The notes below the pieces were generated by a model, which searched no databases, was not told the DNA's origin, and saw only the letters and a list, made by a program, of their open reading frames with translations. 45,688 nt of DNA from Candidatus Woesearchaeota archaeon (GTDB lineage Archaea > Nanobdellota > Nanobdellia > Woesearchaeales > UBA9642). Both the position numbers and the translations under genes were made by a program. Shown here one piece after another: positions 2,569 through 22,075 of the stretch. The DNA is taken from the NCBI GenBank assembly GCA_013330595.1, contig DUIB01000064.1, positions 1-45,688 on the forward strand, in the 5' to 3' direction. The stretch's first letter is position 1; each line of letters starts with the position of its first letter.

Positions 2569-2703
2569 TAGTAAGCGACAAAAGTTTTTGGTAATAATTT
2601 AGCATCTCGAGACTCAGAAGTTATTCTGAGTGCTCGCTCGAACATGCAATAAAATTGCATGATTCGAAGATGCTAAATTACCAAGCATTTAAGTCGCTTA
2701 CTA
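2569..2703. repeat. 135-bp self-complementary element, copy 1 (MITE-like): 11-bp perfect TIR tagtaagcgac/gtcgcttacta, flanked by TGG/TGG
   Basis: Identical by eye to 8502-8636; nested stems ggtaat/attacc, ttagcatct/agatgctaa and two internal hairpins. Confidence 0.9.
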
Positions 2704-2792
2704 TGGTAATGTTTCACCATTTTCGAATAATTAACAAACTTTTTATATGCTTCAGGCAGATATCTTGATAAGAAAGATAGAGAGTGTTTATT

Positions 2793-3245
2793 ATGGGTGA
2801 AGAAGTTATAAGAACAGGAGTAGATGAATTGTTAGATTTGCTTAAAGATAAGCCTAAAATTCCTCTTATCGAGGCTGCAAGAAAGATTAATATCCCTGTA
2901 GACATTGTTCAGGCATGGGTTGATTTTCTTGTGGAGGAGAGAATTCTGGGGATAGAATATAAATTTACAACCCCCTATATCTATATTAATCAGCCAGGGG
3001 ATTCAAAGGCTGTTTTGAGTGAAAAATCTTTGATAGTCGATATCTCTTATTTCAGGAATAAATTTATAGAAAGGGCAAAAAAGGATAATATTCCTGAAGC
3101 AAAGATACCTGATCTTTGGAAAAATCATTTAACACAAGAGCTTGATATAAAGAAAAAATTTTTCTTTTTTGAGGCACAGCAGAGAAGATTAAGAAATATC
3201 GAGGAATTGTGGAATACCTATCAATTATATTTGTTTTCCAGTTAA
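2793..3245 (+). CDS. Winged-helix-like protein of pilus locus
   Basis: MGEEVIRTGVDELLDLLKDKPKIPLIEAARKINIPVDIVQAWVDFLVEERILGIEYKFTTPYIYIN resembles a wHTH; TATA-like ctttttatatgc upstream. Confidence 0.65.
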   Translation: MGEEVIRTGVDELLDLLKDKPKIPLIEAARKINIPVDIVQAWVDFLVEERILGIEYKFTTPYIYINQPGDSKAVLSEKSLIVDISYFRNKFIERAKKDNIPEAKIPDLWKNHLTQELDIKKKFFFFEAQQRRLRNIEELWNTYQLYLFSS

Positions 3246-3257
3246 AAAGAGGTTATA

Positions 3258-4439
3258 ATGGAGCTAGAAGAATTTTTGGAAATTGATATCCTGCACTTTC
3301 TTGAGCATAGCAAAGAGGTTAAAGCGCAGTCTTATGTCGACAAAGAGGAGGATTATGGCGTATTTCTTAATAAGGATTTTTTGAAGGAATTGGATAAAGC
3401 AGTCGAGAGCGATAATGTAGCTGCCACCCAGAAATTATTTGATGAACTAAGAGACTACTATAATTCTATACCAAAGAACAGCATTGAAGAAAAAAAGGTC
3501 TATAATGTACTGGAACAGATGTATAACAAGATTGATGCCTATATAAAATTAAAAGGCAATGTTAAAGCTGTAAGAAGTTTTGCTGAAATACTCTCAGGAC
3601 ACTATATATTTTCTGACTATGATAATCCGGCATTGGCATCAATGCAAGAACAAGGCGGTACAACAGATATGAACATTGAGAGGAAGCTTCAGAATCTTGA
3701 TAGCAAGCTGACAAAGTTTGGGGAGGATGTCTCTGCCTTGAAAGAATCATTGATTGTGGATGCAGACTTAAAATCAGGTAGAGACTTGCGAATCATCAAG
3801 GTGCCAAAAAAACCAGAAAGCCGGGAATCAGGGGATGATGCCTCAAAAGATGTTAGCCGTATAAAAGAAATGGCAGCAGCTGTCAATTTGCAAATAAATA
3901 ATATGCAAATAAACAATAGGCTGTCACCACAAAAGAATGTAACTCTCCAACCTCCTATTCTTCTAAACTCAATGAAGGCTCTTAATTCTAGATTTTCCTT
4001 GAGACCCCAGCAGAATACTGTGAAATCGCAAAAATTGGCAAAAAAAGCCGGAGTGAAAAATACTGGCACTGCAATAAATGAATTGAAGAAATTTAACGAA
4101 ATCGGGATTGAAGAGCCAAAAAAATCAGACATTGAAAAACAAAGCTCTAATGAAGCTGCTAATAGAGGAATAAATCCCTCAAATCAAAAATCAAATCAAA
4201 AATCAAATGAATTCACAGAAATTTCAGGTGAAGCATCAAATACTGCCCAGAAAAGAAAATTTGGGGGCATAGATAGCATTGAAATAGACGAATTATATGT
4301 GGATGGGCTGAAGAAAATGTACGAAAAAGACTATTATTCTGCAGAGAATATTTTTAGGCATATACTTCAATTGAGGCCCAGAAACATGAAGGCAAGGATA
4401 AGATTAAAGCAGTGCTTGGAAGGCGATGTGAATGGATAA
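3258..4439 (+). CDS. Low-complexity linker protein with C-terminal TPR-like repeat
   Basis: C-terminus VDGLKKMYEKDYYSAENIFRHILQLRPRNMKARIRLKQCL is TPR-like; overlaps start of ATPase gene by 8 bp. Confidence 0.65.
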   Translation: MELEEFLEIDILHFLEHSKEVKAQSYVDKEEDYGVFLNKDFLKELDKAVESDNVAATQKLFDELRDYYNSIPKNSIEEKKVYNVLEQMYNKIDAYIKLKGNVKAVRSFAEILSGHYIFSDYDNPALASMQEQGGTTDMNIERKLQNLDSKLTKFGEDVSALKESLIVDADLKSGRDLRIIKVPKKPESRESGDDASKDVSRIKEMAAAVNLQINNMQINNRLSPQKNVTLQPPILLNSMKALNSRFSLRPQQNTVKSQKLAKKAGVKNTGTAINELKKFNEIGIEEPKKSDIEKQSSNEAANRGINPSNQKSNQKSNEFTEISGEASNTAQKRKFGGIDSIEIDELYVDGLKKMYEKDYYSAENIFRHILQLRPRNMKARIRLKQCLEGDVNG

Positions 4440-5919
4440 TTATCATGACCCGGCAGCTAAGGCTGATGCAAGAAGGAAGCCGGAAATTTCCCTGGATAAT
4501 TACAAGATCAAGATAAATGATATCATAGTTGACATTAATATTATTATCAAAGAGTATGATTCGACACCAAGATATGTGGTCTCATTGACTAATATTAGCG
4601 AGACAACCAAAATTATTCTGGAAAAAATCAGACAAGAATTTATTTCAAAAGTTGATCCGAGGGAAATAGAGAATGCACAAGAATCAGAGGATATTAGAGA
4701 CAGATTTAGGGGAGAGGTAAGAAATTTGATACAGAAATATTTCCCTTCAGCGAACGAGGATACAACAAACATGCTTGTAAATTATATCATCCAGGAAAAT
4801 CTTGGTTTTGGAAAAATTGAAATCCTTCTTAAGGATATATTTCTGGAGGAGATTGTAATCAATAACCATAATGAGCCAGTATGGGTTTATCATAAAAAAC
4901 ATGGTTGGCTAGTAACAAATATAACACTGATGGCAGAATCCAGAATAAGGCATTATGCCACGATGATAGGAAGGGATGTGGGCAAAGAAATCACCACATT
5001 AAATCCATTGATGGATGCCCATTTAAAGACAGGGGACAGGGTGAATGCAACATTGATGCCCATATCCAGCAAAGGCAACACAATCACCATAAGGAAATTC
5101 TCTGCTGATCCATGGACAATAACAAAGTTCATTCGTGATAATACGATCTCTTTAGAGGCTGCAGCATTTCTTTGGTTTGCTATTCAGAATGAACTCTCAA
5201 TATTGGTTGCAGGAGGCACTGGATCAGGAAAAACATCAATGCTAAATGTCATAAGCAATTTTTTCCCACCAAATCAGAGGATTATATCGATTGAGGATAC
5301 TCGAGAGCTTATACTGCCTAGCAATCTGCATTGGGTGCCTTTAGAGACAAGGCTTCCAAATCCAGAGGGGAAGGGAGAGATAACAATGCTTGATCTTCTT
5401 ATTAATTCATTAAGAATGAGGCCAGATAGGATATTGGTTGGTGAGATTAGAAGGCAGAAGGAAGCTCAGGTATTATTAGAGGCCATGCATACCGGCCATT
5501 CAGTATATGCTACCGTACATGCAAACAATGCAGATGAAGTGATTGTAAGGCTGACAAATCCTCCTATTGATATACCTAAAAGCATGATATCATCACTCAG
5601 TGTTGTGTTGGTTCAATCAAGAAATAGGAGGACAGGAAAGAGAAGGACACTGCAATTAGCAGAGGTCACGCCGACAGGAGATGTTAAAATTCTTTATCAA
5701 CTCAATGTTAGCAAAGATTCTCTTGATGTAATATCCAAATCAGAGACTGTTATTGAAAAATTGAAGCTCTATACAGGTTGGAGTGAGGATGAAATAAATA
5801 GTGATTTGAAGGAGAAAGTGAATATACTGCAATGGATGCTGACAAATAACATTGAGGATGTTAATCATATAGGAATGATTATGTCTAAATATTATATTGG
5901 CAATCTTGTTTTGGATTGA
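4432..5919 (+). CDS. Type II/IV secretion system ATPase (GspE/TadA/VirB11 family)
   Basis: Walker A GGTGSGKTS, RPDRILVGEIR, EAMHTGHSVYATVHANNADEVIVRL. Confidence 0.95.
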   Translation: MDNYHDPAAKADARRKPEISLDNYKIKINDIIVDINIIIKEYDSTPRYVVSLTNISETTKIILEKIRQEFISKVDPREIENAQESEDIRDRFRGEVRNLIQKYFPSANEDTTNMLVNYIIQENLGFGKIEILLKDIFLEEIVINNHNEPVWVYHKKHGWLVTNITLMAESRIRHYATMIGRDVGKEITTLNPLMDAHLKTGDRVNATLMPISSKGNTITIRKFSADPWTITKFIRDNTISLEAAAFLWFAIQNELSILVAGGTGSGKTSMLNVISNFFPPNQRIISIEDTRELILPSNLHWVPLETRLPNPEGKGEITMLDLLINSLRMRPDRILVGEIRRQKEAQVLLEAMHTGHSVYATVHANNADEVIVRLTNPPIDIPKSMISSLSVVLVQSRNRRTGKRRTLQLAEVTPTGDVKILYQLNVSKDSLDVISKSETVIEKLKLYTGWSEDEINSDLKEKVNILQWMLTNNIEDVNHIGMIMSKYYIGNLVLD

Positions 5920-5930
5920 GCAGGTGAATT

Positions 5931-6740
5931 ATGAGTTTTTACAGATTATTAGCCAATAATTTTCCGAATCTTAAAAAAGACTTAGTAAGAGCAGGGATAA
6001 GTGATACTGCTGAAAAATATGTTAAAGACACTTTTCAGATGACCTTATTTATGTCATTTGGCATTTCTGTGGTCAGCATATTCTTTTTCCTCAAATATAA
6101 AATAAACATAATGTTGTCTATCTTGATTTTGTTTTTTTGTCTATTATTGTTTTTTGCTTTTTTTCTGAAAAGAGCTGAGGTGAGGATTATAAAAAGGGAA
6201 AAGGAAATCGACAGGGATGTATTATTCGCAGGAAGATTCTTGCTTGTCAAAATCAATTCTGGGAAGCCCTTGATTAATGCTATCGGTGATGCATCAATTA
6301 GCTATGGTGTCGCAGGCAAATTTTTTAAGGAGATCGTAAGAGATATCGACTTAGGAACCCCTCTGGAGCAGGCCCTTGAAAATGCCTATAAGACAACGCC
6401 TTCTAAAAGGTTTAAAAAAATACTATTCCAGATAAATAATGCATTAAAGATAGGAGTTGATCTTTCAGCACCGCTGGAATCGACGCTAGATGAGATTTCC
6501 CAGGAGCAACTGGTAGAAATACAGCGGTATGGCAGGAAACTTAATGGAATAATTATGTTTTATATGCTGCTGGCAATAGTCATCCCTTCGCTAGGTATAA
6601 CTTTGTTCAGCATAATCACCTCGATGGTTTCCATTAATTTCAGTTCACAGATATATGTTGTTGTGATTTTACTGCTGATTGTAATTCAAATAGTGTTTTT
6701 GACTGTTTTCAAATCAATTAGGCCAAACCTAAACATATAA
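5931..6740 (+). CDS. T2SF/TadB-like pilus assembly membrane protein
   Basis: Multiple TMs; ...FAGRFLLVKINSGKPLINAIGDAS... adjacent to ATPase. Confidence 0.85.
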   Translation: MSFYRLLANNFPNLKKDLVRAGISDTAEKYVKDTFQMTLFMSFGISVVSIFFFLKYKINIMLSILILFFCLLLFFAFFLKRAEVRIIKREKEIDRDVLFAGRFLLVKINSGKPLINAIGDASISYGVAGKFFKEIVRDIDLGTPLEQALENAYKTTPSKRFKKILFQINNALKIGVDLSAPLESTLDEISQEQLVEIQRYGRKLNGIIMFYMLLAIVIPSLGITLFSIITSMVSINFSSQIYVVVILLLIVIQIVFLTVFKSIRPNLNI

Positions 6741-6741
6741 A

Positions 6742-7752
6742 ATGAGAAATTTTGCATCAGAATTCGGAAAGGCATTTATCTTTAAGAGGATAAGACCAGG
6801 CATCAGAAGATTTTTTCTCAGAGCAGGATATGATGATGTGCCATACAGGATGTTCGGATACCTGTTTTATCTAACGTTATTTATGACATATATCCTGTAT
6901 ATTATTTTTATTTACCCGAGGATTGTCGCATTCAATGCAATGACTATAGTTGTCGTTACCTTCACTACATGGGTTGTTGTTCCTCTGGCAATAATCAGCC
7001 TAATTGTAGTATATATATATTTTAGCATGACAATCAGAATCTTTCAAAGAACAAAAGAGATAGAAAGGATACTTCCTGAATATTTGCAATTAGTGAGCTC
7101 AAATCTTAAGGGAGGATTATCTTTTGAAAACAGCTTATGGAATGCGATAAGCCCTGAATTTAGCATAGTTGCTAAGGAGATTACCATTGTATCAAAAAAG
7201 GTTATGACAGGGAGCGATCTGACTATTGCATTAGAAGAGTTCACAGAAAAATACAACAGCCCTTTGCTTAAGAGGTCATTTGATCTCATAATAGGAGAGG
7301 TAGAGTCTGGTGGTCAGATAGCGTTTATTGTTGACAAAGTCATAGATAATCTGAGGAAAACCAAGGTGCTGAAGGAGGAAATGACTGCATCAACCTTGAC
7401 TTATATGATATTTATAGGGGCTATTGTTATATTGATAGCACCAGGATTATTTGCCCTGTCATATCATCTTCTGAAGATAATGGGAGGATTCGGTGCGCAG
7501 CTCTCAGCCTCTCCGATACAAGGGCTCCCGATTAAGATGTCAGGCGGAAATTTAGACATTGATGCTTTCAGGAATTTTTCAATATCAGCATTGTTGATGG
7601 TTTCCTTGTTTTCATCTATGCTGATATCTATTATCGAAAAAGGAGATGTGAGAGGAGGTCTGAAGTATATCCCTGCATTCATGATAAGCTCAATATTTTT
7701 TTATTTTGTTTTTGTATCTGCTCTAGAAATGGTTTTTGGAGGAATAGGATAA
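6742..7752 (+). CDS. T2SF/TadC-like pilus assembly membrane protein
   Basis: EIERILPEYLQLVSSNLKGGLSFENSLWNAI motif, multiple TMs, adjacent paralogous gene. Confidence 0.85.
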   Translation: MRNFASEFGKAFIFKRIRPGIRRFFLRAGYDDVPYRMFGYLFYLTLFMTYILYIIFIYPRIVAFNAMTIVVVTFTTWVVVPLAIISLIVVYIYFSMTIRIFQRTKEIERILPEYLQLVSSNLKGGLSFENSLWNAISPEFSIVAKEITIVSKKVMTGSDLTIALEEFTEKYNSPLLKRSFDLIIGEVESGGQIAFIVDKVIDNLRKTKVLKEEMTASTLTYMIFIGAIVILIAPGLFALSYHLLKIMGGFGAQLSASPIQGLPIKMSGGNLDIDAFRNFSISALLMVSLFSSMLISIIEKGDVRGGLKYIPAFMISSIFFYFVFVSALEMVFGGIG

Positions 7753-7794
7753 ACTTGCTTTAATTAAGTCTGAAAGACTTAAAAAAAAGGGATA

Positions 7795-7986
7795 TAGTTG
7801 AGGACATAAATAACCTATAAGTTAGCATCTCGGAAATGAGGATTAATCCTCATTATCCGCTCGAACCTTGGACAGAGTTCAAAGGTTCGAAGATGCAAAG
7901 AAATACTTGGTATTTCTTGCACAAGAAATTTTATGCATGAAATTTCTTAGTGCTAACTTATTATAGGGAACTATTGTCTTCAACTA
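7795..7986. repeat. Divergent member of the 2569/8502 element family; 12-bp terminal stem tagttgaggaca/tgtcttcaacta (one G-U), flanked by ATA/ATA
   Basis: Shares core skeleton ttagcatctcg-[hairpin]-cgctcgaac-[hairpin]-ttcgaagatgc with the 135-bp copies; two further hairpins on the 3' side. Confidence 0.8.
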
Positions 7987-8040
7987 ATATTGCAGTAAAT
8001 TTATAAATATGCTAATATGATAACACATTTGAGGATTTGT

Positions 8041-8496
8041 ATGATAAAAAGATCTCAGGTTGCACTTGAATTTTTGATGACATATGGATGGGCTATGCTC
8101 ATTATTTTGATAGCATTCGGATCATTAGCTTATTTTGGAATGTTTAATCCAGAAAAAGTTCTTCCAGATAATTGTTTGTTTGGAAATGGATTAACATGCG
8201 TTGATGGAATAATAAGGCGCGAGGCCCCTAATACCTATAATGTGACATTAGTTCTGCAAAATACATTAGGACAAACCATGTATTCCCTCAGAGTCAAAGT
8301 TGATACTGTAAATTGCAGTGTGTTGGGAAGCCAAAATTTGGCAAGTGAAGACAAAAGGTTTGTCGAGTGCAATGTAACTTCATCATCATTCAGCATTGGG
8401 AAAAAAGCAAAAGTCAAGATGACAGCCAATTATAGGAGGACTGCTTCAGGATTAGATCAAGCATCAATTGGAGAGATATATGCTACAGTTCAATAA
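8041..8496 (+). CDS. Class III signal peptide archaeal pilin
   Basis: MIKRSQVALEFLMTYGWAMLIILIAFGSLAYFG: QxSxExxxL-type class III motif. Confidence 0.85.
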   Translation: MIKRSQVALEFLMTYGWAMLIILIAFGSLAYFGMFNPEKVLPDNCLFGNGLTCVDGIIRREAPNTYNVTLVLQNTLGQTMYSLRVKVDTVNCSVLGSQNLASEDKRFVECNVTSSSFSIGKKAKVKMTANYRRTASGLDQASIGEIYATVQ

Positions 8497-8501
8497 TGCA
8501 T

Positions 8502-8636
8502 TAGTAAGCGACAAAAGTTTTTGGTAATAATTTAGCATCTCGAGACTCAGAAGTTATTCTGAGTGCTCGCTCGAACATGCAATAAAATTGCATGATTCGA
8601 AGATGCTAAATTACCAAGCATTTAAGTCGCTTACTA
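8502..8636. repeat. 135-bp self-complementary element, copy 2, flanked by CAT/CAT
   Basis: Same 135-nt string as 2569-2703. Confidence 0.9.
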
Positions 8637-8668
8637 CATAATACTGTTGCTGCTAATAGGGTTAGAAA

Positions 8669-9854: not shown

Positions 9855-11756
9855 ATGACAAGTGAAATTATCAAAGAAATATTAAAGTGTATTCCAGAAG
9901 GAAAAATAAGTGATGTTAATTTTGAAGGAGCTAACATTGTCCTGTATACAAAGAAGAAGGATTTCTTTTTAGACAATGGAGGCATAATCAAAGGCATAGT
10001 TGATACTATAAAGAAAAGAATCGAATTAAGGCCAGATCCAAGTATATGTATGGAACAGGAAAAGGCTGAAAAGACAATCAAGAAATTAATGCCAGAAGAA
10101 GCTAAATTAGGAAATATCATTTTTGATGTCCAGAGAAGCATTGTAATAATAGAATCAGAAAAGCCTGGCATGGCTATTGGAAAAGACGGCGAATTATTAC
10201 AGGAAATAAAGAAAAAAACTTTATGGGTTCCGATAATTAGAAGAACACCTACTATTAGAAGCCAATTGATTGAAAATATCAGAGAAGTTCTTTATCAGAA
10301 TAATGATTATAGGAGAAAATTCCTTCATAAGACTGGTGAAAGGATATATAATGGATGGCTTAGAAGACAGAAAAAAGAGGAATGGATAAGGATAACATAT
10401 CTAGGAAGCGCACGAGAGGTAGGAAGATCATGTTTGCTGTTGCAGACTCCTGAATCAAGGGTGTTGTTAGATTGCGGAATAAATGCAGGTGCAGATTCAC
10501 AGGAAGAGATGTATCCTTATCTTGAGGCTCCTGAATTCAATATAAGCCAATTGGATGCAGTCATAGTAAGTCATGCACATCTTGATCATTCTGCTTTGAT
10601 TCCTTATCTATTCAAGTTTGGTTATAGAGGACCGGTTTATTGCACTCCACCGACAAGGGATATGATGGCGTTGCTGCAATTGGATTTTGTAAAAATTCAA
10701 AGAGAGGACGGGAAAGAGCCTATATATACAAGTGATGATGTAAAGGAAATGGTCAAGCATACAATAACACTTGAATATGATGAGGTTGCTGATGTGACGC
10801 CTGATGTTAGGATTACCCTTTACAATGCCGGTCATATTCTTGGAAGTGCAATGGTCCATTTGCATATTGGAAATGGATTGCATAATCTTCTATATTCTGC
10901 TGATACTAAATATGCTAAGACATCAATGTTAAGCCCTGCAATAACCCAATTTCCGAGACTTGAAACATTGCTTATTGAATCAACTTATGGTGGAAAAGAC
11001 AATGTGATGCCGCCGACAACAGAGGCTGATGAATTGCTTGGAAAGATGATTGGAGAGACAATTGAAAGAAGAGGGAAAGTCCTTATTCCAGTACTTGGAT
11101 CAGGCAGGGCTCAGGAAATAATAGTTCTGCTTGAAAGATTAATAAGGGAAAAAAAGGTTCCTGATGTTCCAATTTACGTAGATGGAATGGTTTGGGATAT
11201 CACAGCAATACATACAGCATATCCAGAATATCTGAATAATGATGTAAGGCAGCAGATATTTACTCGAGATAATAATCCATTTTTAATGCCAAACATCAAG
11301 AGGATAGGATCACAAAAAGAGAGACAGCAATTACTAGAAGAGACAGGATCATGTGTTGTCCTTGCGACCTCAGGAATGCTTGTCGGCGGACCTTCAGTGC
11401 AGTATTTCAAGGCATTGGCAAATAATGAAAGAAACACTCTTATATTCAGTTCATACCAGGCAGAAGGCTCTCTTGGATCAAGAATTCAGAGAGGAGAAAA
11501 AGAGTTTGTCTTCAGGAATGGCAGTGGCAATGAAGTGGTTAGTGTTAAGATGGAAGTCGTTAAATTAGAGATCACAGGACATAGTGATAGAAAAGAATTG
11601 ATGAATTTTGTCTATAAGTGCAATCCACGCCCAAAAAGGATATTGATCAATCACGGAGAGAATTCAAGGGCATTAAACCTTGCAAGCTCCTTGCATAATC
11701 AGTACAAGATTGAGACTCTTGCCCCTAGAAATCTGGATGCGATAAGGATAAAGTAA
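9855..11756 (+). CDS. KH-domain beta-CASP ribonuclease (aCPSF1)
   Basis: N-terminal KH domains (GMAIGKDGELLQEI), metallo-beta-lactamase HAHLDHSALIPYL, beta-CASP region, C-terminal GHSDRKELMNFV. Confidence 0.95.
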   Translation: MTSEIIKEILKCIPEGKISDVNFEGANIVLYTKKKDFFLDNGGIIKGIVDTIKKRIELRPDPSICMEQEKAEKTIKKLMPEEAKLGNIIFDVQRSIVIIESEKPGMAIGKDGELLQEIKKKTLWVPIIRRTPTIRSQLIENIREVLYQNNDYRRKFLHKTGERIYNGWLRRQKKEEWIRITYLGSAREVGRSCLLLQTPESRVLLDCGINAGADSQEEMYPYLEAPEFNISQLDAVIVSHAHLDHSALIPYLFKFGYRGPVYCTPPTRDMMALLQLDFVKIQREDGKEPIYTSDDVKEMVKHTITLEYDEVADVTPDVRITLYNAGHILGSAMVHLHIGNGLHNLLYSADTKYAKTSMLSPAITQFPRLETLLIESTYGGKDNVMPPTTEADELLGKMIGETIERRGKVLIPVLGSGRAQEIIVLLERLIREKKVPDVPIYVDGMVWDITAIHTAYPEYLNNDVRQQIFTRDNNPFLMPNIKRIGSQKERQQLLEETGSCVVLATSGMLVGGPSVQYFKALANNERNTLIFSSYQAEGSLGSRIQRGEKEFVFRNGSGNEVVSVKMEVVKLEITGHSDRKELMNFVYKCNPRPKRILINHGENSRALNLASSLHNQYKIETLAPRNLDAIRIK

Positions 11757-13310: not shown

Positions 13311-13559
13311 GCCGGCGTGGCACAACCTGGTACTGCGCAAATCTTTAATAAAAGAGCGTAAGCCTGGAATTATATTCCAAGAAGAGTACCATCAAGCTTG
13401 TTTCCGCAAGGATATCCCGGAGACTTTTGCGAAAAGTCTCGTCAAAAGCGGGCGACATTCACTTCGTGAAGTCCCCCTGAAAAAGATCATTCGCAGGTCG
13501 GGAAATTCAAACCTTAGGAAAACAGAAGTGTTTTTCCGGTGAAAGTCCGGGCGTCGGCG
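13311..13559 (+). ncRNA. Candidate structured RNA gene (~249 nt), tRNA-like ends but not a canonical tRNA
   Basis: 5' GCCGGCG pairs with 3' CGTCGGC (7 bp, one G-U); TCCGG/CCGGG hairpin at 13535-13551 abutting the terminal stem; A-box-like TGGCACAACCTGG at 5' end and B-box-like GGTGAAAGTCC at 3' end; CTGCG(13333)/CGCAG(13492) and ATCTTT(13341)/AAAGAT(13482); perfect GAGACTTTT-GCG-AAAAGTCTC; G-U pairs favour + strand; locally higher GC than the AT-rich surroundings. Confidence 0.6.
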
Positions 13560-13655
13560 TATTTACAATTCCCCTGTGTTGGTTGCTTTGTTTTTGCCGC
13601 GTTCTCAGCGACAAGGTTTATATACTTCTATGCCTTTGTATTATTGGAGGGAAAA

Positions 13656-14030
13656 ATGTTAGATCTGCATAGATATGGGGCTAAATATGAGTCTGGGAAA
13701 AGGTTTGTATTGAATTCGAGCTTAAGTCAACACAACAAGGACTTAATCTTGAAGTTCGATCAGCATATGCAATTGATTGGTGTAGGCAAGCCTAGGATAA
13801 TGAAGTATTTTGACAAAATAACAAGGCTTGGAATATGGCTCAATAAGGATTTTGAACAAGCCACAAAAGAAGATATTGAGAAGGTAGTCATTTCTATACA
13901 CCAGCGTACTGATTTGGCTAAAGCTACAAAGATAGACTATAATATAATTCTGAAAAGATTCTATAAATGGCTTTTAGGACATGAAGAAGAATATCCTCGA
14001 CAAGTAAAATGGCTAAAAACACTAGGATAA
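13656..14030 (+). pseudogene. Tyrosine recombinase/integrase N-terminal SAM-like domain only (catalytic domain absent)
   Basis: NKDLILKFDQHMQLIGVGKPRIMKYFDKITRLGIWLNKDFEQATKEDIEKVVISI...KATKIDYNIILKRFYKWLLG is core-binding-domain-like; stops before any R/HxxR/Y catalytic region; promoter-like ggtttatatacttc just upstream. Confidence 0.65.
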
Positions 14031-21909: not shown

Positions 21910-22075
21910 CGAACTAATCATGTTTGTTCTTGATCACGCCAAAGAAATTCCTATGAATTTCTTGGCCCAAGAAATACTGTGTATTTCTCTGGGATCAGAA
22001 ATGCCGCTTTATGTAATATTACATAGATAAGCTTCGCTTATCCACTCATCGTGGATGAGTGGTATTTCTGACACA
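21869..22075. repeat. Multi-branched inverted-repeat element enclosed by tgtgtca/tgacaca
   Basis: Nested stems: caagaac/gttcttg containing ccaccagtc-aaa-gactggtgg and catgattag-cgaa-ctaatcatg; two agaaat-type hairpins; tcagaaat/atttctga containing three hairpins including ccactcatc-gtg-gatgagtgg. Confidence 0.8.

Follow-up and report, generated by a model that had tools for sequence, protein, structure and literature searches.

Integron attC sites and AAV-type ITRs are folded, bulged and branched palindromes that are recognized by their shape, and the hallmarks of REPIN/RAYT systems are an HuH Y1 transposase and tetranucleotide-tagged palindrome pairs. Nearest in kind to the elements analyzed here are ERIC, RUP and Correia, which are shorter than 200 bp, encode no protein, carry TIRs with a terminal TA, are flanked by target duplications (TSDs), lie between genes and give a fully base-paired transcript (PMC2229807, PMC10969869). 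Archaeal MITEs, listed from Sulfolobus, Halobacterium and others, are likewise non-autonomous miniature elements, and our comparison with them is by listing rather than by sequence (PMC10969869). They remain little studied. The elements bracketing the archaeal pilus locus described below, hereafter Y-elements, are of the MITE class by their TIRs, TSDs, size and copy number. They constitute a new MITE family and belong to none of the named families against which they were tested.

The 135-bp elements of the pilus locus

The window, i.e., the whole stretch of 45,688 nucleotides that was analyzed, carries two Y-elements of subfamily A on the plus strand, A1 at 2569–2703 and A2 at 8502–8636; a further copy with 100% identity (E 6.5e-66) was found on contig C55. 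Direct reading of the sequence bore out what the first-pass annotation had reported of the two window copies: they are one and the same 135-nt string, their 11-bp TIRs read TAGTAAGCGAC and GTCGCTTACTA (in A1, 2569–2579 on the plus strand and 2693–2703 on the minus strand), and 3-bp duplications abut both of them, TGG for A1 (2566–2568 and 2704–2706) and CAT for A2 (8499–8501 and 8637–8639). The element is more than the plain self-complementary palindrome of that annotation: it has the form of a Y with two bulged arms.

In the Y, the TIRs pair as the terminal stem, which is followed by a short inner stem from which two hairpin arms branch; each arm carries a small bulge close to the junction. 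The three-way-junction core of A1 spans 2599–2676 (plus strand), as delimited by the fold, covariation and the exact inner-stem pattern; its inner stem, TTAGCATCT/AGATGCTAA, closes two bulged hairpins at 2608–2636 and 2638–2667. The inner-stem pattern places the core of A2 at 8532–8609 (plus strand). Modeled as DNA, the 135-mer folds at −44.3 kcal/mol, far beyond chance against shuffled sequences with a mean of −12.1 and a standard deviation of 2.64 (z = −12.2).

A third Y-element, E3 of subfamily E, sits between A1 and A2 and had been overlooked by the earlier annotation. It occupies 7795–7986 (plus strand), has the ends TAGTTGAGGACA..TGTCTTCAACTA and is flanked by ATA at 7792–7794 and 7987–7989. 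Its 192 bp include a nested 54-bp double-hairpin insertion at 7897–7950, which lies between two TGC triplets (7894–7896 and 7951–7953). This insertion represents a second small repeat type, made of two adjacent AAGAAAT..ATTTCTT hairpins with a GTGC/GCAC joint; another was seen beside the L016 element (near 1465), and a similar double hairpin extends from window position 21942 onwards.

The pilus cassette around these copies is syntenic in several relatives, along the whole stretch in genomes G001 and G003, from the ATPase on in G002 and in part in G005. The gaps that hold copies in the source genome are element-free in G001–G003 and partly in G005. The alignment of empty and filled sites that had been proposed as a check could be carried as far as syntenic gaps lacking the element in G001–G003, the relatives being too diverged for base-exact junctions. 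Just downstream of A1, and not part of it, a TATA-box-like sequence, AAACTTTTTATATG, lies at 2736–2749 (plus strand). Relatives conserve it upstream of their ortholog of the gene, its AAACTTTTTATA motif being shared. The pilus and proteasome genes are followed directly downstream, at 9855–11756 of the window, by the gene for FttA, the archaeal transcription termination factor.

Family members, end types and relatives

The source genome (G000) is small, a 94% complete MAG of 1.35 Mb in 71 contigs, and its host is archaeal by its genes for FttA, EF-1A/EF-2-type factors, a proteasome subunit and archaeal pilus proteins. A BLASTn search of this genome with the 135-mer returned ten matches, so further copies do exist, and covariance models of the full element and of the core detected 17 loci: 16 intact or nested relatives and one chimera. 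Subfamily A comprises four copies, three of them identical, with the TIR TAGTAAGCGAC; B has three copies (TIR TAGTTGCCGAC), C a single copy (TIR TAGTTGC(A/T)GAC), D a single copy that combines the TIR TAGTAAGCGAC with other arms, E three copies (TIR TAGTTGAGGAC) and F four copies, with the ends GTATTGACTTAGC. Elements of subfamilies A–E measure 134–136 bp (E3 being counted without its nested insert) and those of F 129 bp. The remaining locus, L022, has an A/D-like left end and a B-like right end, has lost one arm and has no TSD; as a chimera of two subfamilies, it shows that copies can recombine.

All twelve A–E elements have TAGTNNNNGAC ends, and an exactly abutting 3-bp TSD, expected by chance in about 2% of cases per element, flanks 11 of them, D1 being the sole exception. 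The copies lie between genes, in many cases no more than 10 bp from a stop codon, and their orientation relative to the genes varies. The family is short, non-coding and multicopy, with TIRs and with TSDs of 3 bp in 20 of 21 elements across G000, G002 and G166. Together with the dispersal and nesting of the copies and the syntenic relatives that lack them, these features uphold the initial reading of a non-autonomous, MITE-like insertion.

The same core occurs in G000 with two end types, TAGTNNNNGACA with a 3-bp TSD versus GTATTGACTTAGC with a TSD of about 8 bp. For the F elements, the duplications match at 8/8, 7/8 and 8/8 positions, and F3 matches if a loss of 2 bp at its left end is allowed. 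All 17 core loci lie inside elements, and the covariance-model search revealed no free-standing core in G000. In subfamily F, the arm is nearly identical in sequence to the D type and is set inside unrelated ends that go with another TSD length. The end type AAGC is paired with the arm CTCAG in A and ATGAG in D, and the end type TGNN with CTCAG in C and ATGAG in B and E; as all four combinations exist, recombination has probably reshuffled ends and arms. The core, being common to elements with 3-bp and 8-bp TSDs, is therefore a module of two transposon types, which means that such cores can switch transposon type.

Two further observations concern the second end type. Locus L170 (G000:C69:49240–49453) is a 214-bp element with F-type ends, a different multi-hairpin core and an 8/8 TSD. 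Contigs C25, C50, C61 and C66 of G000 start just inside a GTATTGACTTAG repeat end of this type, which suggests that the assembly was interrupted by a longer multicopy element that is missing from it.

Elements with like ends, other cores and 3-bp TSDs (9/9 elements) were found in G002, of the same genus, and in G166, of the same order. Those of G002 are 168 bp long (3-bp TSD in 5/5, one duplication being readable as up to five A's) and those of G166 131–279 bp (4/4). The target duplications of A–E, G002 and G166 have no common target sequence. The longest G166 element, at L070:1501–1779 (G166:C41; 279 bp), has TAGTTGGCGACA ends and an AAT/AAT TSD; its multi-branched inside folds at −100.6 kcal/mol, and its outer parts are common to the 147-bp elements of that genome.

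None of the 370 further genomes sampled from the phylum contained the core itself. Matches to the core pattern (three in 84,980 genomes and two in a viral scan) were attributed to chance, as none folds by the model, and a viral TIR match, L087, was rejected as a stretch of a tailed-phage-like contig with neither core nor TSD. Phages and plasmids gave no element match, two exact-pattern viral scans were empty, and viral contigs searched with the pilus ATPase gave no match. Literature searches retrieved no paper joining MITEs, archaea, target duplications and DPANN, and nothing on Woesearchaeota transposases or three-way-junction repeats.

As to the mobilizer, the earlier statement that the window holds no transposase gene stands for the 40 ORFs covered by a Pfam scan. 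The short ORF at 13539–14030 gave a sub-threshold match to a phage-integrase SAM-like N-terminal domain (PF13495, 22.2 bits, cut-off 27). Neither PF01609 and PF00665 nor exact TIR patterns disclosed an autonomous partner in G000, at 94% completeness and with four contigs starting inside second-type ends. Exact TIR matches in this genome are of two kinds: these elements themselves, and single matches, of which the five that were inspected lie within genes. In G000, G002 and G166, the DDE_Tnp_1 and rve transposases found are bounded by other ends, none like those of the Y-elements. Duplications of 3 bp are made by the IS families IS3, IS30 and parts of IS5, which are candidates for the source of the mobilizer.

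Evolution of the fold and competing explanations

In an alignment of the eight distinct A–E sequences, the 45-pair Y had 98.6% of its cells paired, with 17 pairs changed on both sides; none of 500 shuffles scored as high, and sliding the partners by 1–3 columns reduced the pairing to 25–41%. With subfamily F included, compensated change affected 14 of the 31 predicted core pairs. Comparisons between subfamily consensuses revealed 7–13 fully compensated pairs and 0–3 others each, and the broken pairs all involve the single-copy subfamily C. Within subfamilies, by contrast, there were 21 single uncompensated changes versus one compensated change. Of the 21, 18 are G.T or A.C steps, 10 with G.T on the plus strand and 8 with A.C (G.T on the minus strand), i.e., with no strand bias. 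From this compensated versus uncompensated contrast, which is the main finding of this work, the fold appears to be selected or self-corrected while the elements propagate and to decay after insertion. The pattern is not one that suggests selection for a single RNA strand at every host site. Covariation of the TIRs alone could reflect one protein reading both ends, which does not explain the covariation of the hairpin arms.

We consider it very probable that the Y-elements are a non-autonomous, MITE-like family with a modular Y core, whose fold matters during propagation and is subject to drift after insertion. A trans-acting transposase would insert the elements between genes with a 3-bp target duplication. 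The core is a module, present also in elements whose ends differ and whose TSDs are 8 bp long, with end types and arms combined variously. The fold may be maintained in one of two ways: through recognition of the folded single strand, by a protein or by the transposition process, or through a self-templated correction of the hairpin that ‘perfects’ new copies. To judge from the compensated versus uncompensated contrast, each copy would then drift after its insertion. At the pilus locus, three copies inserted into intergenic gaps independently of one another, any putative effect on expression or mRNA processing being incidental. A more far-reaching version, which we advance tentatively and regard as rather doubtful, is that the branched palindrome is a transferable module that passes from one transposon to another even where their ends and TSD lengths are unrelated, and that every round of propagation renews its fold, through recognition of the single strand or through self-templated correction. 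If true, this would amount to an archaeal transposition or copying route with a folded strand as a functional intermediate.

A stable bulged three-way junction with covariation, located between co-directional genes and present three times in one pilus operon, could also be a structured RNA of use to the host, e.g., a signal that acts between the genes of an operon in termination or in the processing or stability of mRNA; transposition would have spread it, and selection would keep it at each site. Insertions of Correia and ERIC are known to affect mRNA cleavage (PMC10969869). We nevertheless hold such a role to be unlikely, considering that changes within subfamilies are uncompensated and free of strand bias, that the orientation of copies relative to genes varies, that the pilus operons of relatives work without the element, and that Rfam scans gave no family match beyond chance.

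Being identical and in direct orientation, A1 and A2 had also been read as a pair able to excise about 5.9 kb as a circle, and the chimera L022 documents recombination among copies. Recombination between them is possible in principle, but a composite mobile unit or deletion-circle pair carrying the 5.9 kb of pilus genes is highly improbable and, as a composite, largely refuted. The TGG to the left of the first copy and the CAT to the right of the second leave the outer ends without a matching duplication, and a composite unit was rejected on these differing TSDs, which indicate that A1 and A2 inserted independently. Moreover, the genes between them are ordinary pilus genes conserved in synteny, and a third copy, E3, lies inside the interval. 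Lastly, an assembly artefact or ordinary terminator hairpins are scarcely credible: although the genome is fragmented into 71 contigs, some of which begin in a repeat end, each copy has unique flanks and distinct TSDs, the syntenic order runs across both copies in G001 and G003, and 16 diverged copies have a common anatomy.

Comparison with known systems

With the propagating MITE-like family as the preferred reading, the Y-elements offer a natural experiment that separates the demands of propagation from the events that follow insertion, and they make it testable why many prokaryotic MITEs are near-perfect foldbacks. No homology to the Y-elements was found in the collections searched. In contrast to ERIC, RUP and Correia, they are branched, with two bulged arms, show compensated change between subfamilies, have a 3-bp TSD outside TAG..CTA and reside in an archaeal host. 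From the listed archaeal MITEs they differ in a core that is common to two end types.

REP/REPIN with TnpA-REP (RAYT) and the subterminal hairpins of IS200/IS605 offer a possible analogy in mode, as a bulged hairpin is recognized there as a single strand; these systems use HuH single-strand transposition, whereas the Y-elements have TIRs and TSDs (PMC8266576, PMC6006769). The likeness to attC sites and AAV ITRs is one of resemblance only, since the Y-elements are dispersed, with TSDs, and come without an integrase, a cassette array or a Rep protein.

Together, the new features are a branched core found in two end types, the exchange of modules, and the sharp separation of compensated from uncompensated change. 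The apparent selection on the fold, or its ‘perfecting’, in new copies is unusual for an element of an otherwise familiar kind.
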